Source of the DNA: an uncultured Porphyromonadaceae bacterium
Lineage (GTDB): Bacteria; Bacteroidota; Bacteroidia; Bacteroidales; Muribaculaceae
Assembly: GCA_947175695.1 (NCBI GenBank)
Contig: CAMWNT010000013.1
Span: forward strand, 1-36,411
Direction of reading: 5' to 3'
Length of the DNA: 36,411 nt
The stretch's first letter is position 1; every line of letters begins with the position of its first letter. The notes under the pieces were generated by a model that was given only the letters and a program-made list of their open reading frames with translations, did no database searches and was not told the DNA's origin. The translations under genes were made by a program, and so were the position numbers. Below are positions 4,602 to 33,462 of this stretch, piece by piece.

Positions 4602-4604
4602 GGC

Positions 4605-9137: not shown

Positions 9138-9141
9138 ACTG

Positions 9142-15839: not shown

Positions 15840-15881
15840 AACCCTGTCAGACAATCTGACATTATCTCGATATCCAATTAT

Positions 15882-15934
15882 GATGGCCGCTCCCACCCCG
15901 CAATCGCGGAGGGGAGCGGCCATCTCTCTTTTTT
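15882..15934 (+). terminator. Rho-independent terminator
   Basis: A 13-bp stem GATGGCCGCTCCC (15882-15894) / GGGAGCGGCCATC (15912-15924) is followed by TCTCTTTTTT. It ends the transcript of giant protein A. A small 5-bp hairpin (15846-15860) precedes it. Confidence 0.88.
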
Positions 15935-15978
15935 CGGCAATACCTAACCGAACATGATGATGATTTTCACTTCGATTT

Positions 15979-16009
15979 TTGATTTTAAACAATTTTTCAA
16001 CTAAATTTG
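15979..16009 (+). promoter_or_regulatory. Promoter of the TolC-HlyD-ABC-2 operon
   Basis: TTG at 15979-15981, a 20-nt spacer, and a perfect TAAATTTG at 16002-16009. The start codon is about 98 bp downstream, so the leader is roughly 90 nt. No specific regulator motif is recognised in it. Confidence 0.65.
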
Positions 16010-16106
16010 TAATTTATAATATCAAATATGAGTATGCCTGCGTGTAACTTCCATACTCCCTTCAATTTTAAAACCCATTTTCGTCTCTCCCAATAAGCTT
16101 GAATCT

Positions 16107-17552
16107 ATGAAAAATTGCCTGTATGCCGGCGCGATAACTGCGGCATTGGCGATGACCGCGACGTTTACGGCTCATGCACAGGTCAGCATTGACTCTTGCC
16201 GAAATATGGCACTGCGCAACAACAAGATCCTTAAAATGGCCGACGAGGCTGTAAAGGGAGCCGGATACGAACGGAAATCCGCTTTCGCCGCCTATCTTCC
16301 CGGAATCGACTTCACCGGCGGATACACCTACAACCAACGCCAGATCGCATTACTCGGCGAAGACGCCAAGCTCCCCACTATGAGCTTCGATCCCGCCACC
16401 CAGACTTTCAAATACAACATCCTGACGACTCCCGATGGAACTCCCGTCACCGACCCCTCTACCGGCGGCTACATCCCGACCGAGGTAGCGCTCATTCCAA
16501 AAGAGGCGATGACTTTTGATGTCCACAACGTCTTCGCCGGAGCCTTCACCCTCACCCAGCCCATCTTCATGGGCGGCATGATCAAGGCAATGAACGATAT
16601 CACGAAATATGCCGAGAATATCGCTGTTGCCACCAAAAACGCGGCCGTACAGGATGTCATTCTCGGGGTCGACCAGGCCTATTGGGGCGTTGTGTCGCTT
16701 GGCGAGAAGAAACGTCTCGCCGAAAGCTTCGTCAATCTCGTCGACTCGCTGCGCTTCAATGTCAACGCCATGCTTGAGCAAGGAATCGCGACCCGCTCCG
16801 ACCTGCTGACAGTAGATGTCAAGCTCAACGAGGCCAAAGTGATGCTGACAAAAGTCGACAACGGCCTGACTCTCTCCAGGATGGCGCTCGCCCAGATCTG
16901 CGGACTCCCCGTAGACTCCCGCCTTCAGCTTGCCGACGAAGGGGGAGCCGACATCGCGACTACCGTCGCTCCGCATTCCTACAACATGGAAGATGTCTAC
17001 GCCCGCCGCAACGACCTGGAAGTGGTCAGACAAAGCATCAACATGCTCGGATCACGCGAGAAACTCGCCATGGGCGCGATGCTCCCGAAAGTGGCCGCTT
17101 TCGGAATGTATGAATTCTCCAACCCGAATGTAATCAACGGATTCGAAAAGAAATTCGGCGGCGGATTCAGCGTCGGAGCCACAATCACAATCCCGCTCTG
17201 GCACTGGGGACAGCACTACAACCACTATCGGGCAACCAAAGCCACGACCAACGCTCAGCGCCTCATGCTTGAAGATCTCGAAGAGAAAATCAATCTCCAA
17301 GTCAGCCAGGCCACTTTCAGCTTCAACGAAGCGCTTAAAACGTATAACACGGCCTGCTCCAACATGCAGAGCGCCGAAGAAAACCTCCGCTCGGCTCAGC
17401 TCGCCTACCGCGAAGGGCTGATGACCACCGACGACGTAATCGCCGCCCAGACCGCCTGGCTTGCCGCAAATTCCGAAAAGATCGACGCCCAGATCGCAAT
17501 CCGCCTCTGCGACGTCTACCTCTCGAAAGTGCTTGGCACTCTCGGCGAATAA
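16107..17552 (+). CDS. TolC-family outer-membrane efflux protein
   Basis: A 481-residue outer-membrane channel subunit. The signal peptide MKNCLYAGAIT...AHA is cleaved before Gln25. The mature protein has the two long alpha-helical/coiled-coil repeats of the OEP family, with heptad-rich helices at about 170-260 and 385-470, and beta-strand regions near 60-130 and 340-375 that would build the barrel. The C-terminal helix ends in IAIRLCDVYLSKVLGTLGE. The trimer would dock on the HlyD-like adaptor encoded 68 bp downstream to make a trans-envelope duct. It is the first gene of the operon and follows a clear promoter. The exported substrate is not evident. Confidence 0.92.
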   Translation: MKNCLYAGAITAALAMTATFTAHAQVSIDSCRNMALRNNKILKMADEAVKGAGYERKSAFAAYLPGIDFTGGYTYNQRQIALLGEDAKLPTMSFDPATQTFKYNILTTPDGTPVTDPSTGGYIPTEVALIPKEAMTFDVHNVFAGAFTLTQPIFMGGMIKAMNDITKYAENIAVATKNAAVQDVILGVDQAYWGVVSLGEKKRLAESFVNLVDSLRFNVNAMLEQGIATRSDLLTVDVKLNEAKVMLTKVDNGLTLSRMALAQICGLPVDSRLQLADEGGADIATTVAPHSYNMEDVYARRNDLEVVRQSINMLGSREKLAMGAMLPKVAAFGMYEFSNPNVINGFEKKFGGGFSVGATITIPLWHWGQHYNHYRATKATTNAQRLMLEDLEEKINLQVSQATFSFNEALKTYNTACSNMQSAEENLRSAQLAYREGLMTTDDVIAAQTAWLAANSEKIDAQIAIRLCDVYLSKVLGTLGE

Positions 17553-17620
17553 TTCTCTGACACTCCGCCAATCGGAGCGCATCTCTAGTTATCTTTAATC
17601 ATTTATCATTCATAAATGCA

Positions 17621-18634
17621 ATGGCTACCGACAATCTTAACAACGACTCTCTGGAGGTGAGCAAAAAAGACCGCATGCTCATTCTCACTCTCATATGCGT
17701 GGTGCTCGTCATCGCGGCCCTCGCTGTCTGCGGATTTCTGTTTATGAAGCAAGGCCCCGACACGGTGCAGGGCCAGGGCGACGCCACCGAAGTGCGCATC
17801 TCCGGCAAACTCCCAGGCCGTGTGGTCGAAATCTTTGTCGAAGAGGGGCAACACGTCAAAGAAGGCGACACACTTGTGCATATCCATTCATCGCTGGTCG
17901 ACGCAAAACTCTCTCAGGCCAAGGCGATGGAGACTGTAGCTTCGGCCGCCGACCATAAGGTCGATGCCGGCACACGCTCGCAGATCGTAGCCGCGGCCAA
18001 AGATCTCTGGACTCAGGCCCAGGCCGCCAGCGGCATCACTGAAAAGACTTATCGACGCCTCGAGAACCTCTACAACCAGGGGGTGGTCAGCGAGCAGAAA
18101 CGCGATGAGGCAAAGGCCGCATATGACGCCGCAAAGGCCGCCGAAAGCGCGGCCCGCTCGCAATATGAGCTCGCTCTCGCAGGTCCTCAGAAGGAAGACA
18201 AAGAGGCCAGCTCGGCCATGGTCACAGTAGCCAAAGGGGGAATCAAAGAGGTCGACGCGCTTCTTGAAGACAGCTATCTCCTTGCTCCCTGCGACGGCGA
18301 AATCACGGTCATCTATCCCAACGTCAGCGAACTTGTGGCCACAGGCGCGCCGATCATGACGCTTCAGAAAGACGACCATTGGGCGGTGTTCAATGTGCGC
18401 GAGACTCTCCTCAAAGACATCACTCTGGGCAAAGAGCTCAAAGTGTATATCCCGGCGCTCGACACGACGGCCCAAATGAAAGTGTTCTACATCAAAGATC
18501 TCGGCACCTATGCCAACTGGCAGGCCACAAAATCCACCGGCGACTTCGACGCCCGCACATTCCAGATAAAAGCACGTCCGGAGAAGGCCATCCCCAATTT
18601 CCGTCCGGGCATGTCGGTTGTGCTCAAAGACTGA
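17621..18634 (+). CDS. HlyD/EmrA-like membrane fusion (periplasmic adaptor) protein
   Basis: A 337-residue adaptor. It has a cytoplasmic N-terminus, one transmembrane helix at about 19-42, and a biotinyl/lipoyl-like half-motif EVRISGKLPGRVVEIFVEEGQHVKEGD at about 56-82. A coiled-coil hairpin follows (about 95-210, Ala/Gln/Glu-rich), then the second lipoyl half (LLAPCDGEITVIYPNVSELVATGAPI) and a beta-barrel domain to the end. It bridges inner-membrane permeases and TolC. The architecture and size match the YbhG/EmrA type that serves ABC-2 permeases. The gene lies 68 bp after tolC, and the permease gene begins 53 bp downstream at a GTG codon. Confidence 0.9.
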   Translation: MATDNLNNDSLEVSKKDRMLILTLICVVLVIAALAVCGFLFMKQGPDTVQGQGDATEVRISGKLPGRVVEIFVEEGQHVKEGDTLVHIHSSLVDAKLSQAKAMETVASAADHKVDAGTRSQIVAAAKDLWTQAQAASGITEKTYRRLENLYNQGVVSEQKRDEAKAAYDAAKAAESAARSQYELALAGPQKEDKEASSAMVTVAKGGIKEVDALLEDSYLLAPCDGEITVIYPNVSELVATGAPIMTLQKDDHWAVFNVRETLLKDITLGKELKVYIPALDTTAQMKVFYIKDLGTYANWQATKSTGDFDARTFQIKARPEKAIPNFRPGMSVVLKD

Positions 18635-18687
18635 GCGACAGCGAATAAGTTGCCGCTAAACATTCATCACATTTAAGTTTCAACAGT

Positions 18688-19845
18688 GTGAGTCCTTTTT
18701 GTGAAATATTCAAGAGAAGCGTTCTGCAGCTGGTGCGTCGCCCTGTCTATTGGGTAGCGATGTTTCTGCTGCCGCTTTTCGTGTTTCTCTTTCTGTCGTC
18801 GCTCATGGCCGAGGGACTGCCGCAGAAAGCTCCGGCCGGAGTGATCGACAACGACGGCTCGCCGCTGTCACGCAAGATCACGCAGAATCTCAACGGCATG
18901 CAGATGGTCGATATCACCGCCATGCCCGAATCCTTCACCGAAGCGCGCCATATGATGCAAGAGGGGAAAATCTACGGATTCTTTCTCATCCCCCACGATT
19001 TCGAAGCCGACCTGCTCGCGGGCCGTTCGCCGGAGATATCGTTCTATACCAACATGACATATTTCGTGCCTGCGTCGCTTCTCTTCAAGACCTTCAAGAC
19101 TACGGCCCTATTTGCCAAGGCGGGAGTGGCGTCGGAGGTGATCAGCAGTGTCGGATTCACTCAGAATCCGTCGCCGCTGCTCCAACCGGTCAATATTGTG
19201 ACTCGCCCGATATCGAATCCCGAACTCAATTACGCCATATATCTCTGTGTGTCGTTTCTACCCGCGACGCTGCAGCTTATGATAATCCTCGTCACATGCT
19301 TCAGCCTCGGACAGGAGATCAAATACCACGCCTCGCGCCGGCTTCTTGAGATGGCCCGCGGCTCGATCGTGAGAGCCATCTATGCCAAACTGCTGCCGCA
19401 GACTCTCATATGGACGGTCATCGTCATTTTCATGGAGTCGTGGCTTTTCCGATGGCAAGGCTATCCGATGCATGGCTCGTGGTGGTGGCTGACTCTTTCG
19501 GAGATTCTCTTCGTGTTGGCATCGCAGGGGTTCGGGCTGATATGCTTCGGCATATTCCCCAATCTTCGCCTATCGCTTTCGATGGGAGCGCTGATCGGCA
19601 TTCTGTCGTTCTCGGTGGCGGCGTTTTCGTTTCCGGTGGAAAGCATGTATCCCGCGATCGGCATTTTCAGCTGGGTTGTTCCGATCCGTTATAACTATCT
19701 GATCTACGTAGATCAGGCACTTAATGGAATCGACATCTATTATTCGCGCTATTGGTTTGCGGTATATTTCATTTTCATCGTGCTCCCATTTGCCCTGATG
19801 CCGCGCCTGAAGCGGGCGTTCGCGCAGCAGGCTTATGTGCCATAA
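18688..19845 (+). CDS. ABC-2 type transporter permease (first of a pair)
   Basis: A 385-residue inner-membrane protein of the YbhS/YhhJ type. One N-terminal transmembrane helix (about 22-42) is followed by a large extracytoplasmic domain (about 45-180), opening with the conserved APAGVIDNDGSPLSRKI. A cluster of five C-terminal helices runs from about 185 to 380. I choose the GTG at 18688 because the upstream frame is closed and this gives the usual short basic lead (FKRSVLQLVRRPVYW). It works with the second permease as a heterodimer. No ATP-binding subunit gene lies in the operon, which is unusual against the E. coli YbhGFSR system. Export of drugs or envelope lipids/polymers is possible. 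Confidence 0.88.
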   Translation: MSPFCEIFKRSVLQLVRRPVYWVAMFLLPLFVFLFLSSLMAEGLPQKAPAGVIDNDGSPLSRKITQNLNGMQMVDITAMPESFTEARHMMQEGKIYGFFLIPHDFEADLLAGRSPEISFYTNMTYFVPASLLFKTFKTTALFAKAGVASEVISSVGFTQNPSPLLQPVNIVTRPISNPELNYAIYLCVSFLPATLQLMIILVTCFSLGQEIKYHASRRLLEMARGSIVRAIYAKLLPQTLIWTVIVIFMESWLFRWQGYPMHGSWWWLTLSEILFVLASQGFGLICFGIFPNLRLSLSMGALIGILSFSVAAFSFPVESMYPAIGIFSWVVPIRYNYLIYVDQALNGIDIYYSRYWFAVYFIFIVLPFALMPRLKRAFAQQAYVP

Positions 19846-19864
19846 TCCTCAATTTGAATTTTCT

Positions 19865-21070
19865 ATGAAGAAATTTTTCAGAGAATATTACGACACCTTC
19901 CTCCGCGAAGGAAGGATGGTGAAGGGGGATATCGGCATCCTCATTTTCTTCATCCTCCTCCCTTTGGCCTATCCGATTGTGTATTCGCTTATCTACAATC
20001 CGGAGTTGGTCAGAGACGTGAAGATGGTGGTGGTCGACCACGACCGCACTCCCCTTTCGCGCGAGCTGACACGACGCCTCGACGCTACCGAAGGGATCCG
20101 ACTCATCGGATATGCTTCCGATCTTTCTGAAGCGCGGCGTGCGATCGACAGCCACAAAGCCTATGGCATCCTTGAGATTCCGGAGGGATTCGCCCGGCGC
20201 GCCGGACGTCTGGAGCAGGCGAATGCAGTGATGTATTGCGAGATGTCGTTGCTTCTGCGTTATCGCGCCATCCTTGTCGGCGCCACCGACGTCATGCAGG
20301 ATCTGGGCGCCACGCTGACCACCGAACGCATCGATGAAATCGCTCCCCTGGCCGAGACAATCACGGCAGGCGCCGACCTCATGCCGATCCACAACGTCAC
20401 CATGGGCAATCTCGAAAGCGGCTTCGACTCCTTCATCATGCCCGGCATCCTGATATTGATCCTTCAGCAAAGTCTGGTGCTGGCCGTCGGAATGTGTGGC
20501 GGAGCATCGCGCGAGCACCCCTTCCGCAGTTGCTACGCTCCGTTCGGCGCGACCCGCCCTATCATCGCGTCGATTCTTGCGCGCACCACTCTATTCCTGA
20601 TGATAGCGCTCATCCCGACACTATATATCATCCACTACGTCCCGCTGATGTTCCGCTTCCCGATGGCCGGAAACATATTTGAGGAGATCCTGTTTATCCT
20701 CCCGATGATGCTTTCATCGATCATGCTCGGAATGATATTCCAGGGTGTCGTCAGAGAGCGCGAAAGCGTTTTCCTGCTGTGGGTTGTGACGTCGGTGATA
20801 TTCCTCTTCCTTTCAGGTCTGACATGGCCCCGCTATGCCTTCCGGGCGCCTTGGCTCTTCCTGTCGGACTGTGTGCCGGCCACATGGGGCGTAGAGGGCT
20901 TCATCCGGATGAACACCAATGGCGCATCGCTCTCGCAGGTCGGCGAGTCATATCGCAATCTTTGGATCCTGACCGGGGTCTATGCGATCGGAGCATATGT
21001 CGTGCAGCGTTTTGTGCAATATCCCGCCGTGCGCAGGCATGCCGGGCAAAGTGTTTCAGCATCATGTTGA
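19865..21070 (+). CDS. ABC-2 type transporter permease (second of a pair)
   Basis: A 401-residue inner-membrane protein from the ATG at 19865 (MKKFFREYYD). An upstream in-frame ATG at 19835 overlaps the previous gene and adds ten uncharacteristic residues. It has the same topology as the neighbour: one helix, an extracytoplasmic domain opening with VKMVVVDHDRTPLSRELTRRL, then about five helices in the C-terminal half. The shared VDHD/IDND-x-TPLSR motif shows the two are paralogous. They should form the heterodimeric core that joins the HlyD-like adaptor and TolC. The stop codon overlaps the start of the acyltransferase gene, indicating translational coupling. Confidence 0.88.
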   Translation: MKKFFREYYDTFLREGRMVKGDIGILIFFILLPLAYPIVYSLIYNPELVRDVKMVVVDHDRTPLSRELTRRLDATEGIRLIGYASDLSEARRAIDSHKAYGILEIPEGFARRAGRLEQANAVMYCEMSLLLRYRAILVGATDVMQDLGATLTTERIDEIAPLAETITAGADLMPIHNVTMGNLESGFDSFIMPGILILILQQSLVLAVGMCGGASREHPFRSCYAPFGATRPIIASILARTTLFLMIALIPTLYIIHYVPLMFRFPMAGNIFEEILFILPMMLSSIMLGMIFQGVVRERESVFLLWVVTSVIFLFLSGLTWPRYAFRAPWLFLSDCVPATWGVEGFIRMNTNGASLSQVGESYRNLWILTGVYAIGAYVVQRFVQYPAVRRHAGQSVSASC

Positions 21071-22182: not shown

Positions 22183-24081
22183 ATGAAAGATTTGATGACC
22201 CTGATCAGGCGCTTCGCCTGGAAATACAAGAAAGCATTCTTTTTGAGTGTCTTCTTCAATGTCATCACCTCCCTCTTCACCATCTTCTCATTCGCATTTC
22301 TGATACCCATTCTCCAGATACTCTTCGGCCTCGACGACGCCACCTATGAGTTCATGCCGTGGAGCTGGGACAATATCAAAGAAATCGCGATCAACAACTT
22401 CTACTACTTCACCAACCTGCTCATCACCGACTTCGGGCCGGCCACGACCCTGGCTATCCTCTCCTCGATACTCATCGTGATGACAGTCATGAAGACCGGC
22501 ACGTACTATCTATCCGACTACACCATCCTGCCGCTGCGCCACGGCGTTGTGCGCGACATCCGCAACGCCATGTATGCCAAGATACTCGCCCTTCCGATCG
22601 GATTCTTCACTCTTGAGCGCAAAGGGGATATTATCGCCCGCCTTTCGGGGGATGTGGCGGAAGTGGAGTCGTCGGTGCTCGCATCGGTGCTGTCGCTGAT
22701 CCGCTATCCGATCATGATCGTCATTTATCTGGCGGTGATGATCTATGTGTCGTGGCAACTGACGCTGTTTGTGCTCCTTCTGCTCCCCATTTTCGGATGG
22801 ATCATGGGCTCGATCGGGCGCAGGCTGAAATCGCGCTCGATGGCCGCCCAGAATCTATGGGGCGACATTCTCTCCTCGACCGAAGAGACAATCGGCGGAT
22901 TGCGTGTGGTCAAAGCCTTTAACGCCGAAGACAAGATGCGGCGCCGCTTCGAAGCGCAGACCCAACGATACTACGACCTCTGCAATTCGATCCAACGACG
23001 CGTTTCGCTCGCCCACCCCGTCAGCGAGACTCTCGGCACCCTCGCCGTGGCCATCGTGCTCTGGTTCGGCGGGAGCCTGATCCTCTCCGGCTCTTCATCG
23101 ATCGACGCGGCGCAGTTCATCTACTACATGGTGATCTTCTACAGCATCATCAATCCGGCCAAGGAATTCTCGAAGACAAGCTATACTGTGCAGAAAGGCG
23201 CGGCGGCGCTGACCCGAATCGATCGTATTCTCGACGCCGAGAATCCCATCAAAGACCCCGCCAGCCCGGAAGCGCTCCCGCCGCGGTCGGAACGCGGCAG
23301 CGAGATCGAGCTGCGCGACGTCACCTTTTCCTACGACGGCGTACGCAATGTGCTCGACCATGTCTCACTACACGTGCGACCCGGGCAGACTGTAGCCATT
23401 GTCGGCCAGTCGGGGTCGGGCAAATCGACATTGGTCGACCTCGTGCCCCGCTTTTGGGATGTCACTTCAGGGCAAGTGCTTGTCGACGGCATCGACATAC
23501 GCCGCCTGCGTGTGGCCGATCTTCGCTCGCTGATGGGCAATGTCAATCAGGAAGCCATACTGTTTAACGACTCGTTTTTCAACAACATCGCCTTCGGAGT
23601 GGCCGATGCCACGGAAGAGCAGGTGATCGCCGCCGCCAAAATCGCCAACGCCCATGACTTCATCATGGCCACCGAGCATGGCTACGCCACATGCATCGGC
23701 GACCGCGGATCGCGACTCTCCGGCGGCCAGCGACAACGCGTCAGCATCGCCCGCGCGATACTGAAGAATCCGCCGGTGCTCATCCTCGACGAAGCCACAT
23801 CGGCTCTCGACACTGAAAGCGAGCGACTCGTACAAGAGGCTCTCGAAAACCTCATGCGCGACCGCACCACCATCGTCATCGCCCACCGCCTCTCCACCAT
23901 CACCGGTGCCGACCTCATATGCGTCATGCATGAAGGACGCATTGTCGAAAGCGGCACCCACGACCAACTCCTCGCCCGCCACGGCCACTACCACCGGCTC
24001 GTAATGCTCCAGCAAGCCACGTCGTCGGAGAATGCAGCCACTCAGCCTCAACACGTCTTTACCAATACCCCCACCATATGA
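22183..24081 (+). CDS. ABC exporter, fused permease-ATPase (MsbA-like)
   Basis: A 632-residue half-transporter that would homodimerise. Residues about 1-350 form the six-helix exporter membrane domain. The nucleotide-binding domain at about 365-610 is complete: Walker A GQSGSGKST at 408-416, signature LSGGQ at 512-516, Walker B VLILDE at 532-537 with catalytic Glu537, and the switch His in IAHRLST near 568. MsbA-type proteins flip lipid A-core or other lipids, while similar proteins export drugs or peptides. The location after an LpxL-like acyltransferase supports a lipid role. A weak promoter-like TAATTTCG lies at 22153-22160. The stop codon overlaps the purN-like start by ATGA. Confidence 0.93.
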   Translation: MKDLMTLIRRFAWKYKKAFFLSVFFNVITSLFTIFSFAFLIPILQILFGLDDATYEFMPWSWDNIKEIAINNFYYFTNLLITDFGPATTLAILSSILIVMTVMKTGTYYLSDYTILPLRHGVVRDIRNAMYAKILALPIGFFTLERKGDIIARLSGDVAEVESSVLASVLSLIRYPIMIVIYLAVMIYVSWQLTLFVLLLLPIFGWIMGSIGRRLKSRSMAAQNLWGDILSSTEETIGGLRVVKAFNAEDKMRRRFEAQTQRYYDLCNSIQRRVSLAHPVSETLGTLAVAIVLWFGGSLILSGSSSIDAAQFIYYMVIFYSIINPAKEFSKTSYTVQKGAAALTRIDRILDAENPIKDPASPEALPPRSERGSEIELRDVTFSYDGVRNVLDHVSLHVRPGQTVAIVGQSGSGKSTLVDLVPRFWDVTSGQVLVDGIDIRRLRVADLRSLMGNVNQEAILFNDSFFNNIAFGVADATEEQVIAAAKIANAHDFIMATEHGYATCIGDRGSRLSGGQRQRVSIARAILKNPPVLILDEATSALDTESERLVQEALENLMRDRTTIVIAHRLSTITGADLICVMHEGRIVESGTHDQLLARHGHYHRLVMLQQATSSENAATQPQHVFTNTPTI

Positions 24082-25229
24082 GAAAAATCGCCATCTTCGC
24101 TTCCGGCGAAGGCTCCAACGCCGAAAACATATATCAGTTCTTCCAGAAAGGCAACCGCGTGCGCGTAGCCTTGATCATCTACGACCGCGAAGAGTCAGGC
24201 ATCGCCCGCCGCGTCAAGGAAATGACAGGCGTGCGCGCCGTCTACATCGCCCCCGAAGATTGGACATCAGCGCCACAGCGCATTCTCGACCTGCTGGCCG
24301 ATGAAGAGATCGAACTCATCGCCCTGGCCGGATTCCTCCGGATGGTGCCTCAGGCGATCACCCACGCCTACGCCGGCCGCATTCTCAACATCCACCCCTC
24401 GCTTCTCCCCGCCTATGGCGGCAAAGGAATGTATGGCATGAATGTCCACCGCGCCGTCATCGAAGCCGCGGAGGCGAAATCGGGAGCGACCGTGCATTAT
24501 GTCTCCGATGAACTTGACGGAGGCGATATCCTCATGGCGCAAGAAGTCGACGTCACGCCCGACGACACTCCCGAATCGCTCTGCGCCAAAGTGCGCCTTG
24601 CCGAATTCGAGCTCTATCCCCGCGCAATAGCCATGGCGTTGCTACGCATTCCCCCGCGTATCAACGTTGACCCGGCGGCAAGCGCCGCAACTGCCGAAGC
24701 CGAGTCGGCATCTCAAGAACCCACACCCGCACCGGCTCAGACGGAGACCGCGATTCCCCGCGCGGCCGACGTCAATCCTCCGGCCATTCCCGGACTGACA
24801 CCCCCCGCCACTCCGGCAGAAGAATGGGCCCAAACTCTGGGAGTGCGCTATGACGCAGGCAAAGTCAAAGACGCTCTCGGCGCCAATCCCGATGTCGAGC
24901 AGGAAGCCCCGGGAGTGACAATCGTCGAAATCGACGGCACACCTCGCGCGACTTCCCCCGCCGGGGCGCCGCGCGACTCCGATGCGACCGACCGCGAAAT
25001 GCCCCCGACATATCTTGTATGGTCAATTGTCGTCACCCTCCTTTGCTGCATCCCGGCCGGAATTGTGGCCATCATCTATTCATCGCAAGTCAGCTCAAAA
25101 TTCTATGCCGACGATCTCGCCGGAGCGCGCCGCGCCTCCGAACGCGCACAAATCTGGATCATAGTGAGCTTCGTGACGGGAGTGCTCTTCCAGTCGCTAT
25201 ATCTCCCTGTAGCTCTGCTTTTCAACTGA
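24078..25229 (+). CDS. purN: Phosphoribosylglycinamide formyltransferase fused to a CD225/dispanin-like membrane domain
   Basis: 383 residues, nearly twice a normal PurN. Residues 1-195 are a complete GAR transformylase: ASGEGSNAENI at 8-18, catalytic N104 and H106 in RILNIHPSLLPAYGGKG, and D147 in SDELDGGD. It transfers formyl from 10-formyltetrahydrofolate to GAR in purine synthesis. Residues about 196-308 are a Pro/Ala/Thr/Glu-rich linker. Residues about 309-383 match the CD225/dispanin pattern: PPTYLVWSIVVTLLCCIPAGIVAIIYS (helix 1), a GARRASERAQIW loop and a second helix to the C-terminus. The frame is unbroken, so the fusion is real in this sequence. ATGA overlap with the ABC transporter gene indicates translational coupling. 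Membrane tethering is inferred. Confidence 0.9.
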   Translation: MRKIAIFASGEGSNAENIYQFFQKGNRVRVALIIYDREESGIARRVKEMTGVRAVYIAPEDWTSAPQRILDLLADEEIELIALAGFLRMVPQAITHAYAGRILNIHPSLLPAYGGKGMYGMNVHRAVIEAAEAKSGATVHYVSDELDGGDILMAQEVDVTPDDTPESLCAKVRLAEFELYPRAIAMALLRIPPRINVDPAASAATAEAESASQEPTPAPAQTETAIPRAADVNPPAIPGLTPPATPAEEWAQTLGVRYDAGKVKDALGANPDVEQEAPGVTIVEIDGTPRATSPAGAPRDSDATDREMPPTYLVWSIVVTLLCCIPAGIVAIIYSSQVSSKFYADDLAGARRASERAQIWIIVSFVTGVLFQSLYLPVALLFN

Positions 25230-25591: not shown

Positions 25592-28500
25592 ATGAGAAAA
25601 AGTTACATTACATCCGTCGCAGGCACACTCGCCGCAGTGGTGCTTGCAGCAACGGGAGCCGTGTACGCAGCTCAGACAGACTGGGCTCCGCTACGCTCAA
25701 ACGAGCCGGCTCATCCGAGTAGTGTCAAGTATGAGGAATCGCCTATCTCGAAGGCGCTTGGTCGCAAGCCGGAGCGCAACGCGCTCAATCAGGTTGTGCC
25801 CCTCCGCGACGGCGAACACACGCTTCCGGCTATGCGTAGCCAAAAGATGCGTCCTCAATCGATCTTCCGTTCGCCGGAAGCTCCGCGCGGCAACTGCTAC
25901 GCAGTGGTCAATCGCTACACCGAAATGGAATATGCCCATCAGGCTTATGTCGGCCCGCTCGATCTCACCACAGGGCGCCTGACACGCCTTTACTCCGGAG
26001 CTGTCTTCTGCCCCTATATCGGCGACGACTACCTCTATCAGGGCAACTCCTATCGCAAAGGACAGATCATATGTCCCAACTACACCAACATCTCCGAGAC
26101 TCTCTACGGCGCAAGCTGGACACTCGTCGATATCGAAACCGGCGAAATCACTGACAAAATCAACTTCAACGACCAGCTCGCCGACGCTTATAGCGTCACC
26201 TACGACCCCGACCGCGATATCTTCTACACTATCGCCATCGACATGAACAACAGCGAGGGCGACAGCTATTTCGGCATCGTCAATCCTAACGGCGCAACCG
26301 GATGGGAATATTATGCCGGTGGCCGCCTCGAAACTAAAAACAATCAGAAACCCTTCATCGCCGCGATCGCCTACAATCCTGTCGACAAGCAGGTGTATGC
26401 ATTCGACAACAACAACTACGTCTACTCCATCGAATGGGACGGCCCGCTCGGCATGAAACACCCCGAATACACTCTCGTATCGGTCGGCGAAATCTACATG
26501 CCCGACGAGAGCGTGCTCTTCGAGTGTGACTCCAACGACCCCATGGCCGGCCAGATCACTTATAGCCCCATGGACGAGATGTTTGTTGCCATATATCGCG
26601 ACAACCGCTATCGCGTCAACCGTATCGTCTACGTTCACCCCGAAACTTTCGAAGCATTCATCGGCGCCGACGTCAAGGCCGACTCTACGCCTTTCGTATG
26701 TTCGATCTTCTGTGTCGACGACATGGCTTCGTCGGACGCTCCGATGCTCGCTCCGACACCTGCGATCAACTTCACCGACGGCAGCCTCTCCGGCTCTATC
26801 GCCCTCTCGACGCCCACAGAATCCTTTATCGGTCTTGACCTTTCGGGCAAAACGCTGAAGGCTGTCACTAAAATCGACGGCGAGATCAAAGACGAACGCA
26901 ATGTCACCGCAGGCCAGACGTTCACTCTCAACCTCACTCTCGAACAGGGCCTCCACTCATTGGAATTCACCACCGAGATCAACGGCGAGACAAGCCCCGT
27001 CAACACGGTGCCCTTCTATGTCGGCTTCGATGCCCCCCAGGCTCCGACCAACATCCGTCTTGACCTCAACCACCTGACATGGGACGTTCCCGCCCAGCCC
27101 GGCGTCAACAAAGGATATGTCGACATCGACGATATCACATATGATGTCTACCTCAACGACGTGAAGCAGAACTCACAGCCCCTCACCGTCAACGAATTCG
27201 ACATCACTGTGCCCGCTACTATGGCTTACTCCGACATCGCGGTCACAGCAACTTCCCACGGCCAGACTTCTCCCAAAGGCTCTATCAAGGAGATCTTCGG
27301 CAAGGCGTTTGAGCTCCCCTTCCTCCAGGCGCCCACCAAAGAACAGAGCTCGCTCTACACAATCGTCAACGCCAACAACGACTACCGCACATTCTACTAC
27401 GGCACCAACAGCGGCGTCGAAGGAATGATCTTCCTTTGCGGTTACACCGACGATGCCGACGACTGGTTGTTCCTCCCCGCGATCAACTTCCCCGACAATA
27501 AGAAGCTCTATAGCTTCGAGGCTGATCTGCGAGGCGTTTACACCGATCTTTTGACAGCAGAATCCTTTGAAGTGTATCTCGCCGACCGCGCCACTGTAGA
27601 AAGCGCGCTCAAAGGCACTCAGATCTATGCCGACTACAACCTCAAAGTGTCGGCCGCCACTATCCGCCATCACAACATGACGTTCGCTGTGCCCGAAGCC
27701 GGCGACTACTACATCGCCATCCATATGGTGTCGACTCGCGAACAATCATCGCAGGGTCTGACATTCCACAACTTTGAGGTCAAGGCTCTCGACGGCTCGA
27801 CTTCGGCTGTGCCCGGCGAGCCCACGAATGTCACTGTCGTGCCCGCTCAATTCGGCGAGCAGATGGTCACTGCCACCGCAACTCTCCCGACTGTCGACAT
27901 CCTCGGCAATCCCCTCCCGGCTGACGAAGACATCACTCTGACTCTCACATATGCCGACGACGCCGGCTACACCTACAGCCAGCAAGTCACCGGCAAACCG
28001 GGCGAAACTGTCAGCGTCTCCAATGGCGGCGACCGCGACGGCTTCATCTACTACACCCTCACCCCGAGCAACAGCCACGGACCAGGCTATGCCCGCTCCT
28101 ATCGCGTATACGTCGGCGTTGACATTCCTCTCGCCCCGAGAAACATCCAGGGTGTTCCGTCGGCCGACAACCTCTCGCTCAATCTGACGTGGGAAGCTCC
28201 CGAAGAAATCGGTAAGAACGGCGGTTACATCGACCTCTCCGCTCCCGACTTCAAATACACCGTATATGTGAAAAGCGGCACATCCTACAACAAGATCGCC
28301 GACACACGCGACCTCGCCTACACCTTCTATCCCTTCGGAGCCGAAGGCACCGGCAAACTTGAAAGCTATCTCGTCGGCCCCGGCGCAAGCAACTCCGCAG
28401 GCCAGTCGCAGAATTCACTGTTTGTCTCCGAAGTGCTCGGCCAGCCGCTCGAACTCCCCCTCAAGGAGGAATGGAACAGCAGCCTCTTCAACTACTCCCC

Positions 28501-30415
28501 CTACAACTTCCTCACTACCGGCGCATATAGCGCATCCGACTGGGCAAGCGCCGGCACAACTCTCGGCCTTGGAATCGGCGATCCTTCTGTCATCGAAGGC
28601 TGCATCTTCACATTCTCCGCAGCCGGACACACCCTCTCGAGGCTTATCCTTCCGAAGGCAACTACGAAGGGCATCATGAAGGTGAACTTCATCCTCAAAT
28701 ACTGGGATTTCGCTGAAGCTCCCCAGACAATCCGCATCTTCGGCCGCAGCGATAAGACCAACGAGGAAACTCTGATCAGCGAAATCACCACCAACCGTCC
28801 CTCCAAGGGCGAATGGGTCGAAGCTGAAATTCCCCTGACTGAAAACTTCATCGACAGCAACTGGGTGCAGCTCCTCGTTGAAACCGAACTCTTCGGCGGC
28901 GAACACGAATATCTCGTGCTCGACAGCTTCCAGCTTATGCCCGACGCTGACTACGACCTCAAGCTCACTACACTCTCCGGCCTGACTCAGGCCACTATCG
29001 GCGACGTCCTCACCTACGACGTCACTGTAGCCAACGCCGGCCGCGAACGCCTCGGAGCTCCCCTCTCGATCCAGCTTATCGACAAAGCCACCGACAAAGT
29101 GCTCGCTTCCGACAATGTGCAGATCGACGCTCTGACAAGCAACCAGACATTCGACTACTCCGCCACATTCCAACTTGACGGCACATTCAGCAAAACAGAG
29201 AATGTCATCGTCCGCGCATCTATCGATGCTGAAGACGAAAACCTCTCCAACAACTCCCGCGAGCTCCAGCTCTCCATCATGCCCTCGCAGCTCCCCGCTG
29301 TCGACGATCTCGAGGCTACTCTCAACGACGACGGCACTGTGGCTCTGACCTGGAGCGCTCCCTCGGCCACTTACGGCAACTTCGATAACTTCGACGCCTA
29401 CAAGCCCTTCCAGACCACCGAGACACTCGGCTTCTGGCAGAACAAAGACCTCGACGGAATGCAGCCCATCTACTTCCAGAACCAGGCTACCGGCGCTCCC
29501 CTCGTTTGGGAGAACAGCGAATCGCCCTGCGCATGGATGGTCTACGACTATGAGGCGATGGGCGCTCCCGAAGCCCGCATCAAGCCCCACTCCGGAAATC
29601 AGGCCATCATGGCTCGCTGCGGAATGTATCCCGACGAGAATGTGCCTGTGCAGTCGTCGAAGTGGCTCATCTCGCCCGAAATCGTGCCCCAGTCGGCTCT
29701 CTCGTTCTGGTATAGCACATTGACCACCGACTATAAGGAATTCGTAGAACTCTGGGTATCGGAGACTCCCAACGGAGAGGGTTATCTTGATCCGACCGAC
29801 TCCCGCCTCCCCGCAGGCAAGTGTGGCACATTCACCAAAGTGACATCCTTCTCCAAGATGGGTGCCGAAGACTGGGAATATGTGACCTATCGCTTCAACA
29901 GCCGCACACGCCAGTTCGCACTCCGCTATTGCTCCTACGACAGCTTCTGCGCAGTAATCGACGACATCTCCTTCACTCCGGCCAACATGCTGACCCGCAC
30001 TCCCGCCAGCTACTCCGTATATCGCTGCGAGCTCGACGGCTCCAACCCCGTCATGATCGCTGAGAACATCACGGCTACAAGTTTCACCGACACCAACTTC
30101 AACGACGCTGCCTACCGCTACTACGTTGTCGCCAACTCCGACATCGACGGCCACCTCGCAGCAGGCGCTCCCTCGAACCACGTAACTGTGATCGGATCGT
30201 CAGTCGATGAAATTTCCGGTGATGTCGCAGTCGTTGCAGGCAAGGGTGTGATCAACGTCATCAACCTCGCCGGACAGGAAACTGTCATCGCGGCAGCCGA
30301 CGGCAAGATCGTCGCTAAGGCAGTCAACGCATCCGCCCACTCCGCATATGCCGTAGAATCCGGCGTATACGTTGTGACAGTCGGACGTCGCTCATACAAA
30401 GTCATTGTGAAATAA
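25592..30415 (+). CDS. Giant secreted multidomain protein B, paralogue of protein A
   Basis: A 1607-residue protein with the same domain order as 11112-15839. It has a signal peptide (cleavage near residue 27, GAVYAA) and a propeller-like region about 90-390 (VTYDPDRDIFYTIAID, IAYNPVDKQVYAFDNNNYVYSI). Ig/FnIII-like domains follow, then a cleaved-adhesin-like jelly roll at about 572-733 (FELPFLQAPT parallels FELPYTTAPT in A). It continues with further FnIII and beta domains, a CARDB-like domain at 1120-1228, a second jelly roll at about 1330-1475, and a C-terminal sorting-like domain ending GVYVVTVGRRSYKVIVK. No catalytic residues are recognised. Proteins A and B flank the transport operons and probably arose by duplication. 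Export, possibly by a type IX-like system, is inferred. Confidence 0.85.
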   Translation: MRKSYITSVAGTLAAVVLAATGAVYAAQTDWAPLRSNEPAHPSSVKYEESPISKALGRKPERNALNQVVPLRDGEHTLPAMRSQKMRPQSIFRSPEAPRGNCYAVVNRYTEMEYAHQAYVGPLDLTTGRLTRLYSGAVFCPYIGDDYLYQGNSYRKGQIICPNYTNISETLYGASWTLVDIETGEITDKINFNDQLADAYSVTYDPDRDIFYTIAIDMNNSEGDSYFGIVNPNGATGWEYYAGGRLETKNNQKPFIAAIAYNPVDKQVYAFDNNNYVYSIEWDGPLGMKHPEYTLVSVGEIYMPDESVLFECDSNDPMAGQITYSPMDEMFVAIYRDNRYRVNRIVYVHPETFEAFIGADVKADSTPFVCSIFCVDDMASSDAPMLAPTPAINFTDGSLSGSIALSTPTESFIGLDLSGKTLKAVTKIDGEIKDERNVTAGQTFTLNLTLEQGLHSLEFTTEINGETSPVNTVPFYVGFDAPQAPTNIRLDLNHLTWDVPAQPGVNKGYVDIDDITYDVYLNDVKQNSQPLTVNEFDITVPATMAYSDIAVTATSHGQTSPKGSIKEIFGKAFELPFLQAPTKEQSSLYTIVNANNDYRTFYYGTNSGVEGMIFLCGYTDDADDWLFLPAINFPDNKKLYSFEADLRGVYTDLLTAESFEVYLADRATVESALKGTQIYADYNLKVSAATIRHHNMTFAVPEAGDYYIAIHMVSTREQSSQGLTFHNFEVKALDGSTSAVPGEPTNVTVVPAQFGEQMVTATATLPTVDILGNPLPADEDITLTLTYADDAGYTYSQQVTGKPGETVSVSNGGDRDGFIYYTLTPSNSHGPGYARSYRVYVGVDIPLAPRNIQGVPSADNLSLNLTWEAPEEIGKNGGYIDLSAPDFKYTVYVKSGTSYNKIADTRDLAYTFYPFGAEGTGKLESYLVGPGASNSAGQSQNSLFVSEVLGQPLELPLKEEWNSSLFNYSPYNFLTTGAYSASDWASAGTTLGLGIGDPSVIEGCIFTFSAAGHTLSRLILPKATTKGIMKVNFILKYWDFAEAPQTIRIFGRSDKTNEETLISEITTNRPSKGEWVEAEIPLTENFIDSNWVQLLVETELFGGEHEYLVLDSFQLMPDADYDLKLTTLSGLTQATIGDVLTYDVTVANAGRERLGAPLSIQLIDKATDKVLASDNVQIDALTSNQTFDYSATFQLDGTFSKTENVIVRASIDAEDENLSNNSRELQLSIMPSQLPAVDDLEATLNDDGTVALTWSAPSATYGNFDNFDAYKPFQTTETLGFWQNKDLDGMQPIYFQNQATGAPLVWENSESPCAWMVYDYEAMGAPEARIKPHSGNQAIMARCGMYPDENVPVQSSKWLISPEIVPQSALSFWYSTLTTDYKEFVELWVSETPNGEGYLDPTDSRLPAGKCGTFTKVTSFSKMGAEDWEYVTYRFNSRTRQFALRYCSYDSFCAVIDDISFTPANMLTRTPASYSVYRCELDGSNPVMIAENITATSFTDTNFNDAAYRYYVVANSDIDGHLAAGAPSNHVTVIGSSVDEISGDVAVVAGKGVINVINLAGQETVIAAADGKIVAKAVNASAHSAYAVESGVYVVTVGRRSYKVIVK

Positions 30416-30452: not shown

Positions 30453-30489
30453 ATCCCCCGCACGCTCCTGCGTCGCGGGGGATTTTTTT
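30453..30489 (+). terminator. Rho-independent terminator
   Basis: A perfect 9-bp stem ATCCCCCGC (30453-30461) / GCGGGGGAT (30475-30483) is followed by a run of seven T. It ends the giant protein B transcript. A second small hairpin, GCGGAAT/ATTCCGC (30423-30438), precedes it. Confidence 0.9.
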
Positions 30490-30522: not shown

Positions 30523-30530
30523 TAATTTTG
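30523..30530 (+). promoter_or_regulatory. -7 element of the putative steroid/bile-acid reductase operon
   Basis: A perfect TAATTTTG about 63 bp before the ATG at 30594 and just after the preceding terminator. No good -33 TTG is seen at the right spacing (TTTACG at 30495-30500 is the nearest), so expression may need an activator or be weak. Confidence 0.45.
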
Positions 30531-30593: not shown

Positions 30594-31400
30594 ATGCCGA
30601 TTTTTTCTAACAAGATCCCGCAAATTACAGTGTTTTCATCTACAATATATTTCACGGTGCTCGCGCTGATGGTGGTGCTTGCCTGCATCGTATTCATCGC
30701 TCTGCAACGCATCACCCCCGGCTATGGAATAGCCTACGACCGTAAATGGGGGCCCGCCATCAGCAATCGCCTCGGATGGATCATCATGGAGGCGCCCGTG
30801 TTTTTCGCCATGCTCGCCATGTGGCTCCTTTCGCCGCGTCGCGGCGAGCCGACCCTCATAGTGATGACCTCACTCTTCCTGCTCCACTATTTCCAACGGT
30901 CGTTTATCTTCCCGCTCCTGATAAAGGGGAAAAGCAAAATGCCCCTATCCATCATCCTCTCCGGAATCACATTCAATATGCTTAACGGATATATGATCGG
31001 CGGATGGTTTTTCTATCTCAACCCCGCGCCTCAATATCCGGTGGAATGGCTCTATTCGCCGCTCTTCATTCTGGGATGCGTCGTTTTCTTCATTGGGATG
31101 GCGATCAATATCCATTCCGATGCCATCATCCGCTCGCTCCGCAGTCCGGGAGACACGCGACATTACATTCCGCGTGGCGGGATGTACAGATATGTCACTT
31201 CCGCCAACTATCTTGGCGAACTGACCGAATGGGTCGGCTTCGCCATCCTGACATGGAGTCTGCCCGGAGTCGTGTTCGTATTATGGACATTCGCCAACCT
31301 CGCTCCCCGCGCCCGCGCCACTCATAAAAAATATATTTCAATGTTTGGCGAGGAATACTCTTCACTCAACCGCCATTACATCATCCCCTTCATATATTAA
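30594..31400 (+). CDS. Steroid 5-alpha-reductase-like membrane reductase (SRD5A family)
   Basis: A 268-residue polytopic membrane protein from the ATG at 30594; a TTG 66 bp upstream is also in frame but lies inside the promoter box. Six or seven hydrophobic segments are visible. The C-terminal half carries the 3-oxo-5-alpha-steroid 4-dehydrogenase pattern: SPGDTRHYIPRGGMYRYVTSAN, then NYLGELTEWVGFAI (NADPH-site region) and the closing FGEEYSSLNRHYIIPFIY, which parallels the Y-x-x-Y-x-x-x-R-x-x-x-I-P-F end of the family. Such enzymes reduce the delta-4 double bond of 3-keto steroids to 5-alpha products with NADPH. It is followed 2 bp later by an ene-reductase and then an SDR, which supports bile-acid or steroid reduction. 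Exact substrate is inferred. Confidence 0.88.
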   Translation: MPIFSNKIPQITVFSSTIYFTVLALMVVLACIVFIALQRITPGYGIAYDRKWGPAISNRLGWIIMEAPVFFAMLAMWLLSPRRGEPTLIVMTSLFLLHYFQRSFIFPLLIKGKSKMPLSIILSGITFNMLNGYMIGGWFFYLNPAPQYPVEWLYSPLFILGCVVFFIGMAINIHSDAIIRSLRSPGDTRHYIPRGGMYRYVTSANYLGELTEWVGFAILTWSLPGVVFVLWTFANLAPRARATHKKYISMFGEEYSSLNRHYIIPFIY

Positions 31401-31402
31401 AA

Positions 31403-32629
31403 ATGCTTTTCACTCCGGCCAATATAGGACCCGTCGCTCTGCGTAACCGCACCATCCGCTCGGCAGCCTTCGAGGGTATGGGACGCGACAACAATCCGAC
31501 CCCCATGCTGCGCGACTACCATTGGAGCGTCGCCGAAGGGGGAGTCGGCATGACAACTCTCGCATATGCCGGCATCTGCCGCTCGGCTCTTTCATTCGAC
31601 TCACAGCTATGGCTCCGCCCGGAGATCATCGCCCCGCTGCGGGAAATCACCGACGGCATCCACTCCCGTGGCGCCAAGGCATCGATCCAGATCGGACATT
31701 GCGGCAATATGACTCATATCCGCACAGCAGGCGGAATTCCCGTAGCTCCCAACACCGGATTCAACCTCTACTCCCCGACAATCTGCCGCGGGCTTAAGAA
31801 AGACGAGCTCATAGCTTTGGCACGTGATTTCGGCCAAGCCGTCAATACAGCCCGCGACGCCGGATTCGATTGTGTCGAAGTGCACGCCGGCCACGGCTAT
31901 CTCATCTCCCAGTTTCTTTCCCCCTACACCAACCGCCGACGCGATGAATTCGGAGGCTCGCTCGAAAACCGCATGCACTTCATGCATCTATGTCTCGACG
32001 AAGTGATGCGTCAGGCCGGCAACGACATGGGCGTCATCGTCAAGACCAATATGCGCGATGGCTTCAAAGGGGGACTTGAGATCGACGACTGCCTGACTGT
32101 CGCCAAGGCGATCGAACAGCATGGAGTCCACGCGATGGTGCTCTCGGGCGGATTCGTCAGCAAAGCGCCGATGTATGTCATGCGCGGCGAAATGCCCATC
32201 CATACAATGACCCACTATATGAAGCAGCTATGGCTCAAATATGGAGTCCGTCTCGCCGGGCGCTTCATGATCAAGCCCGAACGCTTCGAGCCCCTCTACT
32301 TCCTCGACGACGCCCGCAGATTCCGCGCCGAGCTTAAAATGCCGCTGATCTATGTCGGAGGCGTCATCGACAGGCCGGGAGCAGAGAAAGTGCTCGCCGA
32401 AGGCTTCGAATTCGTGCAGATGGGACGCGCGCTGCTCAACGAGCCCGACTTCGTCAACCGGATGAAGGCCGACACCACCCACCGCTGCGGATGCGACCAC
32501 GTCAACTACTGCATCGCCCGAATGTATAGCCTCGAAATGGCTTGCCACAAACACATGAATCCCGACGACCTCACTCCCGGCATACGCCGGGAGATCGAAA
32601 AGATCCGGGAGCGCGATCGCCGGAATTAA
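31403..32629 (+). CDS. NADH:flavin oxidoreductase, Old Yellow Enzyme family (BaiCD / 5-beta-reductase-like)
   Basis: A 408-residue FMN TIM-barrel protein. Seen are LFTPANIGPVALRNRTIRSA at the start, IQIGHCGNM at 95-103, the catalytic block VEVHAGHGYLISQFLSP with H161 and H164 and Y166, NRRRDEFGGSLENR at 177-190, and the phosphate-binding VGGVIDRPG and QMGRALLNEPDF segments near 318-350. Four Cys (362, 364, 370, 381) near the C-terminus recall the 4Fe-4S site of 2,4-dienoyl-CoA reductase but with different spacing. The C-terminal FAD/NAD domain of BaiCD/BaiH is absent. In this context the likely reaction is reduction of a delta-4-3-keto steroid to the 5-beta product. It starts 2 bp after the 5-alpha-reductase-like gene. 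Confidence 0.9.
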   Translation: MLFTPANIGPVALRNRTIRSAAFEGMGRDNNPTPMLRDYHWSVAEGGVGMTTLAYAGICRSALSFDSQLWLRPEIIAPLREITDGIHSRGAKASIQIGHCGNMTHIRTAGGIPVAPNTGFNLYSPTICRGLKKDELIALARDFGQAVNTARDAGFDCVEVHAGHGYLISQFLSPYTNRRRDEFGGSLENRMHFMHLCLDEVMRQAGNDMGVIVKTNMRDGFKGGLEIDDCLTVAKAIEQHGVHAMVLSGGFVSKAPMYVMRGEMPIHTMTHYMKQLWLKYGVRLAGRFMIKPERFEPLYFLDDARRFRAELKMPLIYVGGVIDRPGAEKVLAEGFEFVQMGRALLNEPDFVNRMKADTTHRCGCDHVNYCIARMYSLEMACHKHMNPDDLTPGIRREIEKIRERDRRN

Positions 32630-32676
32630 TTCCGCGATACGCCCCATCACCGACGATATCAAAACCCACTCCAATT

Positions 32677-33462
32677 ATGACAGCTGTTGTGACCGGCGCG
32701 TCGGGTGGAATCGGACTCGAATTCTGCCGCGCCCTCGCCCGATTGAAACACGACCTCGTCATGGTCAGCATCGACGACACTCCGCTTGTAGAGGCCGCCG
32801 CCGCGATAGCCTCCGACTTCGGAGTAAAGACCTATCCGCTGACTATCGACCTTTGCCGCGAGGATGCCCCCGACCGGATATTCGCATTTCTTCAAAATTT
32901 AGGCCTCGATCCCGACATACTCATCAACAACGCCGGAATATTTTCATTCGCCGAAGTGACTGATATTCCGGAGGCCAAAATCGATGCATTCATCAGTCTC
33001 CACGTCAGGGCAACAACCAATCTGTCGGTCAAATTCGGGCGTTTTTTCCGCAAGAAAGGAGCGGGATATATTCTCAACATGAGCTCCATGTCGTGCTGGA
33101 TGCCGATGCCCGGGCTGGCGATGTATTCCTCGACCAAAGCATATATCCGTGCGTTTTCGCGCGCGCTTCACTACGAACTGCGCGACTACGGAGTCAATGT
33201 GATGGTGGCTTGCCCCGGCGGAATAGCCACCGATCTATTCGGACTTCCCGACAATCTCAAGCGGCTCGCGCTGCGAATCGGCGCGATCGAACGCCCCGAC
33301 CGCTTCGCCCGCAACGCCATAAAACGCCTCTTCAAAGGGAAAGCGCAATACATCAACGGGCTGACCAATCGATTGGCCATACTCATGATCGGCATGACGC
33401 CGCGCGCGGCCAGAATGCAGGTCAAACGCCGCCTCCTCGACCGCGGCATAAGCCGCCCCTGA
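32677..33462 (+). CDS. Short-chain dehydrogenase/reductase, candidate hydroxysteroid dehydrogenase
   Basis: A 261-residue classical SDR from the ATG at 32677; the frame is open further upstream but overlaps the preceding gene. The cofactor loop TGASGGIG is at 6-13 and NNAG at 84-87. Catalytic residues are Ser136/137 (NMSS), Tyr150 and Lys154 (YSSTK), and the ACPGGIATDLFG motif is at 178-189. The tetrad position usually held by Asn appears as His109 (SLHVRATTN). SDRs of this type oxidise or reduce alcohols with NAD(P); a 3-alpha- or 3-beta-hydroxysteroid role fits two upstream steroid-reductase-like genes but the sequence alone does not prove it. A hydrophobic, basic C-terminus may give membrane contact. 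Confidence 0.88.
   Translation: MTAVVTGASGGIGLEFCRALARLKHDLVMVSIDDTPLVEAAAAIASDFGVKTYPLTIDLCREDAPDRIFAFLQNLGLDPDILINNAGIFSFAEVTDIPEAKIDAFISLHVRATTNLSVKFGRFFRKKGAGYILNMSSMSCWMPMPGLAMYSSTKAYIRAFSRALHYELRDYGVNVMVACPGGIATDLFGLPDNLKRLALRIGAIERPDRFARNAIKRLFKGKAQYINGLTNRLAILMIGMTPRAARMQVKRRLLDRGISRP

Follow-up and report, generated by a model that had tools for sequence, protein, structure and literature searches.

Which reactions, on which substrate and towards which product, are encoded by a three-gene cluster of an uncultured Porphyromonadaceae bacterium (contig CAMWNT010000013.1, assembly GCA_947175695.1; Muribaculaceae in the GTDB lineage)? The window analysed here is the entire stretch of 36,411 nucleotides, and the cluster, or trio, comprises genes for a predicted membrane steroid 5-alpha-reductase (5AR), an old yellow enzyme of the 5-beta-reductase type (OYE, or 5BR) with a flavin mononucleotide (FMN) barrel, and a short-chain dehydrogenase (SDR), here termed SDR-A. 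A sequence-only reading had noted three tightly spaced genes, which the plus-strand open reading frames and the gaps (2 bp between 5AR and OYE, 47 bp between OYE and SDR) bear out, and had proposed a stereochemical switch on steroid A/B-ring reduction. Steroid A/B-ring chemistry, as predicted from the orthology of the 5AR and OYE, is still the best reading. With reasonable though far from complete confidence, the trio is read here as a unit that flattens the A/B ring, in which 5BR and 5AR would work in series, SDR-A would act on a hydroxyl group, and the end product would be of the 3-oxo-allo or allo type.

Clusters of this kind have already been published. According to the reviews cited here, Parabacteroides merdae, O. 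laneus and B. dorei form isoallolithocholic acid (isoalloLCA), twenty other Bacteroidota strains form 3-oxo-alloLCA, and the 5AR is clustered with a predicted 3-beta-hydroxysteroid dehydrogenase (3-beta-HSDH) and an NADH:flavin oxidoreductase (PMC10382948). The reported order of steps is 5BR (3-oxoLCA to 3-oxo-delta-4-LCA), 5AR, and then 3-beta-HSDH (PMC10672800, PMC12916643). In a further source, 3-oxoalloLCA is listed for A. onderdonkii, B. theta and P. goldsteinii, and 3-beta activity for O. laneus, Odoribacteraceae, P. merdae and P. distasonis (PMC12692668). The sequence-only reading had equated the trio with this 5AR/5BR/3-beta-HSDH set; the first two members proved orthologous and the third did not, as detailed below.

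The gene classes themselves stand: the Pfam matches, to Steroid_dh, Oxidored_FMN and adh_short respectively, exceed their cut-offs by a wide margin. The 5AR matches Steroid_dh at 5.5e-45 (153.5 bits against a curated cut-off of 22.6), and its best PDB matches are PbSRD5A (7c83, 174.5 bits) and human SRD5A2 (7bw1, 152.6 bits), in agreement with the SRD5A-like membrane reductase first proposed. The 16 published PbSRD5A positions used for scoring, namely the QEY signature and 13 hydrogen-bonded NADPH contacts (PMC7815742), can all be placed in the window 5AR, and 12 are identical. The catalytic pair E54/Y87 is kept as E66/Y99, as are 10 of the 13 NADPH contacts, with R34, Y177 and H230 differing. 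In a tree of 64 chosen rows, the window 5AR clusters with Muribaculaceae rows inside one clade of 44 rows (100/99) that includes Parabacteroides and Odoribacter, and on this placement it is the ortholog of the 5AR in their clusters. Two side observations concern other 5AR records. In-frame stops interrupt 5AR matches in genome G297 (C68:11938-12744; C64:2237-3016) and in locus L057, perhaps marking decaying copies, and a second match without stops is present in G297. The cluster 5AR of L127, a record titled Pseudoflavonifractor (Bacillota), groups with Heminiphilus faecis; probably either the record is mistitled or its bin is a mixture.

The OYE was described at first as a BaiCD-like ene-reductase without the C-terminal flavin domain, and this description holds. 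It matches Oxidored_FMN at 1.6e-48, and since the FMN barrel is the only domain that Pfam detects, the C-terminal FAD/NAD(P) domain is judged to be missing. Against the BaiCD NCBIfam equivalog model it scores 177 bits, below the cut-off of 825, with its best stretch on positions 4-261 of 642; a second stretch also passes. Residues H161, H164 and Y166 are invariant in 79 of 79 aligned relatives, as are C364, C370 and C381, with H366 in 76 and a cysteine at position 362 in 39. FadH-type enzymes have four cysteines at the corresponding site; the alignment indicates that the OYE clade retains a candidate site of three cysteines plus a histidine (C364-x-H366-x3-C370-x10-C381) without the FAD/NAD(P) domain. 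The OYE is 63% identical to the sole match in the P. massiliensis genome at E<=1e-20, and from this identity, synteny and single match it is assigned as the ortholog of the Parabacteroides cluster OYE.

Serial action is suggested above all by the strictness with which 5AR and 5BR occur together. Among 297 sampled Muribaculaceae genomes, 5AR was found in 85 and the OYE (E<=1e-60) in 86; the OYE is present in every one of the 85 5AR-positive genomes (G147 by a partial match) and in one (G001) of the 212 5AR-negative genomes. This family sample includes G013, whose 5AR shares its contig coordinates with that of Heminiphilus faecis (L082), a species that NCBI taxonomy assigns to Muribaculaceae, in line with a Muribaculaceae origin of the window. 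The window's own genus has 5AR in 36 of 40 genomes, its own included. In genus g21 all ten 5AR-positive genomes contain both genes and never side by side: they lie on different contigs in nine and ~82 kb apart in the tenth. This separation does not come from contig breaks, because in six of the nine (G020, G080, G110, G123, G136, G165) the contig extends 6.9 kb or more upstream of the OYE with no 5AR there. In both 5AR-positive genomes of genus g30 the distance is ~4 kb.

The order-wide sample of 393 genomes, in which an operon-clade 5AR was defined by at least 240 bits and a strong OYE by a full-length match of at least 418 bits, gave a similar picture. The OYE accompanies an operon-clade 5AR in 46 of 47 genomes (in two pieces in G442), G297 being the sole genome in which none was found. 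Some 5AR is present in 53 of the 54 genomes with a strong OYE, operon-clade in 45 and distant, on another contig, in 8; in the remaining one, G582, no 5AR was found. No OYE was found in the stretch taken around 18 distant 5ARs (L152-L169), some of these regions ending at contig ends, and one is present around the operon-clade 5ARs of L170 and L171. As distant 5ARs mostly lack a 5BR, strict pairing belongs to the operon clade only. In three genomes of family f75 (G370, G473, G564), an OYE of 37-39% identity lies ~9 kb from a distant 5AR, possibly a looser form of the pair. Among named loci, of which the best 80 of at least 574 were taken as ranked against a Coprobacter-type 5AR, the two genes are linked (within ~2 kb) in 75; for the five unlinked loci, the OYE lies elsewhere in three genomes, and none was found in the genomes of L083 and L120. 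If the two enzymes were alternative branches, one should sometimes be lost without the other, yet the pairing is strict, and an obligate pair carrying out serial steps via a delta-4-3-ketone is thus the interpretation that fits best.

The third gene is where the window departs from the published cluster. Its product is a classical SDR, as had been proposed (adh_short, 4.7e-38), with N84, S137, Y150 and K154 each present in 49 of 49 aligned SDR-A proteins; an attempt to read its cofactor choice from the end of beta-2 was dropped, the positions being variable in the alignment. In the SDR tree, a 100/100 split separates SDR-A from the SDR of the Parabacteroides clusters, termed SDR-B, and the window SDR shares only ~22% identity with its counterpart in the P. 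massiliensis cluster. The best PDB match of SDR-B is 3rd5, followed by protochlorophyllide reductases. By tree and alignment, the window cluster is an A-only form, and its SDR is not the Parabacteroides SDR; the gene after SDR-A encodes a sigma-54 regulator, and SDR-B is absent from the cluster. Nor was SDR-B found elsewhere in the own genome with an Odoribacter query (E<=1e-15), and a query from G708, a member of the Parabacteroides-group genus whose SDR-B is 95% identical to that of P. massiliensis, found no ortholog at E<=1e-5 in the own assembly, which is 87.9% complete and so lacks ~12% of the genome (best match 25%, 26.8 bits). In the same search, 12 other A-only genomes (Alistipes, Millionella, forestomach metagenome-assembled genomes (MAGs) and Muribaculaceae) reached at most 41.3 bits, against at least 139 bits in five genomes with both SDRs. 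In the own genus, SDR-B occurs in 6 of 36 5AR-positive genomes, each time closely behind 5BR.

Across the best 80 named loci the commonest layouts are 5AR-5BR-A (29), 5AR-5BR-A-B (28), 5AR-5BR (12, six of which, L064, L086, L092, L100, L106 and L113, end within 3.3 kb of 5AR) and 5AR-5BR-B (4), followed by 5AR-A-A (2), 5AR alone (2), 5AR-5BR-A-B-B (1), A-5AR-5BR-B (1) and 5AR-B (1). A larger set of 106 clusters, from which 11 were dropped for short flanks, was scored for SDRs within 6 kb of 5AR; the 95 kept comprise 43 with A, 33 with both, 11 with B and 8 with neither. On the 5AR tree, linked SDR-B presence changes at least 16 times, 8 of these forced by well-supported branches, and linked SDR-A at least 8 times, 5 of them forced. 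Alistipes-titled clusters with enough flank are A-only in 8 of 8 cases (four more were dropped for short flanks). The Parabacteroides-group genus, defined as that of G400 and including G707, whose SDR-B is 100% identical to that of P. massiliensis and lies at the same contig position, has SDR-B (E<=1e-30) in 20 of 38 genomes. Ten regions of the group were examined for layout (eight taken plus L094 and L104), the 18 genomes without such an SDR-B match, G582 among them, lying outside this count; 9 of the 10 show 5AR-5BR-SDR-B, and SDR-A is absent from all 10. Region L174 (G702) of the same group keeps 5BR and SDR-B, with no 5AR within the 13 kb taken.

Combining these layouts with the published product lists, SDR-B is likely the 3-beta-HSDH of Parabacteroides, and SDR-A likely something other than the cluster 3-beta-HSDH. 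P. goldsteinii, a Parabacteroides listed only for 3-oxoalloLCA, and P. distasonis, listed for both 3-alpha and 3-beta activity (PMC12692668), weigh against the assignment of SDR-B. For the window, whose assembly shows SDR-A and no SDR-B ortholog, the sequence comparisons support neither the assignment of its SDR as a 3-beta-HSDH nor an isoallo product.

From gene content, orthology and co-occurrence, the following route is predicted, including its direction, its substrate and the position and stereochemistry of the SDR-A step. The 5BR-type FMN enzyme would interconvert a 3-oxo-5-beta steroid and its 3-oxo-delta-4 form, as reported for relatives. The membrane 5AR would then use NADPH to reduce the delta-4 bond on its alpha face, E66 and Y99 acting on the C3 ketone, to give a 3-oxo-5-alpha product. 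SDR-A would work on one of the hydroxyl groups of this steroid, most likely that at C3, and may either open the route (3-alpha-hydroxyl to 3-oxo) or close it as the 3-alpha-hydroxyl. Since SDR-B, the likely 3-beta-HSDH, was not found in the genome, the end product is predicted to be 3-oxo-allo or allo (3-oxo-5-alpha or 3-alpha-hydroxy-5-alpha) rather than isoallo.

Several observations weigh against this reading. The 5-beta-reductase role of the clustered NADH:flavin oxidoreductase is called hypothesised in the review that describes it (PMC10382948). The QEY signature of the window 5AR is incomplete, with E and Y present and Q53 replaced by M65; human SRD5A2 loses activity with Q56A or Q56L (PMC7815742). 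M65 is therefore a real departure from the published motif, as judged by alignment, although it does not rule out 5AR activity, since the M is shared by P. massiliensis (L094), a member of a genus for which 5AR activity has been reported. Indeed M-E-Y is found at all 167 loci, of 171, that gave a 5AR match (the same gene being present in some loci), including distant 5ARs of ~40% identity. A strong OYE occurs in only 8 of the 43 order-sample genomes with a distant 5AR (~100-220 bits), and a weaker one in 9 more. For SDR-A, no close HSDH was found among the best 60 of 507 PDB matches, where 7-alpha-HSDH chains score ~53 bits. Two further points concern the substrate. The own genome has a gene of the bile-salt-hydrolase family (PF02275), as do 44 of the 46 genomes of the genus, which speaks for bile acids; the gene does not track 5AR, being present in G086, G150 and G189 without one, and the family also covers other amidases. 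In addition, rumen, reticulum or abomasum MAG titles appear in 5 of the best 80 named loci (L090, L097, L121, L133, L139), all with linked 5AR-5BR, and bile acids are not expected in these organs.

The forestomach carriers lend some weight to a reading in which the 5-alpha/5-beta chemistry is the same and serves mainly steroid hormones, or sterols of plant, protozoal or host origin, instead of bile acids. Distant 5ARs in many other Bacteroidales families point in the same direction, and the forestomach carriers counsel caution in naming bile acids as the only substrate. The forestomach MAGs may, however, be non-resident there, and Bacteroidota 5ARs are reported to be active on bile acids, disruption of the P. 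merdae 5AR abolishing alloLCA derivatives (PMC10382948). Sterols are an unlikely, if still live, rival as the main substrate, and bile acids are placed ahead of them as the likely one, on the reported activity of this type of cluster and the bile-salt-hydrolase-family gene.

SDR-A could alternatively be a 3-beta-HSDH itself, a non-homologous equivalent of SDR-B, so that the window would make isoallo products. It takes the same place behind 5BR in most clusters, and Odoribacteraceae are listed for 3-beta activity (PMC12692668), the cluster of Odoribacter sp. L137 carrying both SDR-A and SDR-B. The two SDRs are nevertheless not simple substitutes, for both stand in the 33 two-SDR clusters counted above. 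P. merdae is reported to make isoalloLCA (PMC10382948), and the Parabacteroides-group clusters examined are B-only; four genomes of this group, searched whole with an Odoribacter SDR-A, gave no ortholog (best 27%, 61 bits), as against at least 196 bits in seven SDR-A carriers. Alistipes onderdonkii is listed only for 3-oxoalloLCA (PMC12692668), in line with the A-only Alistipes clusters, a set that does not include A. onderdonkii itself. A 3-beta role for SDR-A is accordingly considered unlikely.

The switch first proposed, or an electron sink, would have 5AR and 5BR compete for one 3-oxo-delta-4 substrate supplied by other bacteria, their balance setting the 5-alpha/5-beta output. In other organisms, enzymes of either type can reduce delta-4-3-ketones (reviews, including PMC9645264), and 5AR is NADPH-dependent in solved relatives (PMC7815742). 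Alternative branches should separate, yet the family-wide pairing has no 5AR-positive exception and persists in g21 without adjacency, and the 5BR of relatives is reported to run towards the delta-4 compound (PMC10672800, PMC12916643); the switch is hence less likely than serial steps, and quite improbable overall. Chance placement of an unrelated OYE or SDR beside 5AR was rejected on the pairing counts, the linkage and the conservation of the trio described next.

The features of the cluster are collected below.

Table 1. Coding sequences of the trio and candidate promoter element, in window coordinates.
Feature	Position	Strand	Basis
5AR, membrane steroid 5-alpha-reductase (predicted), 268 aa	30594..31400	+	Steroid_dh, PDB matches, tree
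5BR-type OYE, FMN barrel, 408 aa	31403..32629	+	Oxidored_FMN, BaiCD model, alignment
SDR-A, classical short-chain dehydrogenase, 261 aa	32677..33462	+	adh_short, tree, alignment
TAATTTTG, match to Bacteroidota -7 element TAnnTTTG (candidate)	30523..30530	+	Read in upstream sequence

The assembly contains a single 5AR copy, and flanking genes lie 178 bp upstream and 52 bp downstream of the trio. A transcript of its own beginning at 5AR is plausible, given a terminator-like stem at 30465-30481 and the -7-like TAATTTTG upstream. The Bacteroidota -7 promoter consensus is TAnnTTTG; the strict two-box promoter pattern has no match at 30523-30530, so the element is a suggestion, and the region scan found 4 terminator-like stems against 2.8 expected from shuffles. 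The 5AR frame also has an alternative upstream start, TTG at 30528.

The trio is kept in 18 of 18 same-genus neighbourhoods, a subset of the 35 other 5AR-positive genomes in the genus, with some regions ending at contig ends. As the flanks change while the trio persists, the functional unit is the trio, joined by SDR-B in 3 of the 18, and the remainder of the window lies outside it. Beside the trio, four of these neighbourhoods have the sigma-54 regulator/LptE genes, four a large secreted protein, two MatE/ParAB and one an ABC exporter; the first two of these flanks were considered as parts of the system and rejected on these counts. In L183, L184 and L196 the trio adjoins MatE/ParAB or ABC exporter genes, whose window counterparts (3684-21070) sit ~9-25 kb away, so that the trio seems to move locally within the genus. 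Elsewhere in the window, 11112-15839 and 25592-30415 encode proteins of 1575 and 1607 aa, both with a C-terminal DUF6383 and with matches falling at the same places in relatives; among the 18 regions, three have a homolog directly upstream of the trio and a fourth has one 3.5 kb downstream of it. The gene at 24078-25229, which adjoins an ABC exporter gene, combines a formyltransferase domain (Formyl_trans_N) with CD225, an interferon-induced transmembrane-like domain, at the C-terminus.

A broader proposal, tentative and held with less than even confidence, is a modular steroid C5-epimerase, built on 5BR and 5AR as the obligate core, with SDR-A (perhaps 3-alpha) and SDR-B (3-beta) as plug-ins repeatedly gained or lost; the SDR set would then predict which flat bile acid or sterol a species produces, and A-only Muribaculaceae would produce allo compounds from 3-alpha-hydroxy bile acids. 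Muribaculaceae are common in animal guts, and the A/B comparison extends the route to this family and offers a simple genetic predictor of the product that can be put to the test. Should SDR-B be the 3-beta-HSDH, metagenome profiling by 5AR-cluster presence would miscount A-only clusters as isoalloLCA producers. According to reviews, regulatory T cells are promoted by isoalloLCA and to a lesser degree by 3-oxo-alloLCA, and Gram-positive pathogens are inhibited by isoalloLCA (PMC10672800, PMC10382948).

Set against known systems, the window holds a real and, on sequence comparison, probably functional variant of the published Bacteroidota isoalloLCA cluster without its likely 3-beta-HSDH. In both, 5AR and a one-domain OYE, orthologous between the two, come in the same order and are joined by an SDR as third gene; the difference is that this third gene is SDR-A in the window. 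A literature search found no description of the trio in Muribaculaceae, which is not proof of absence; the new elements are that 5AR and 5BR are strictly paired in the operon clade and that the SDRs are modular, in A and B types. Compared with BaiCD/BaiH-type ene-reductases and 2,4-dienoyl-CoA reductase (FadH), the window OYE shares the FMN barrel and the conserved H161, H164 and Y166, but lacks the FAD/NAD(P) domain and has three invariant cysteines plus a near-invariant histidine. BaiP and BaiJ of Firmicutes catalyse the reaction predicted for the window 5AR, 3-oxo-delta-4 to 3-oxo-allo, yet are described as proteins distinct from the membrane-associated Bacteroidetes 5ARs (PMC9645264). With PbSRD5A and human SRD5A2, the window 5AR has in common the sequence family, the catalytic E/Y and most scored NADPH contacts, and stands apart in its M for the Q of QEY and in belonging to a separate Bacteroidales clade.

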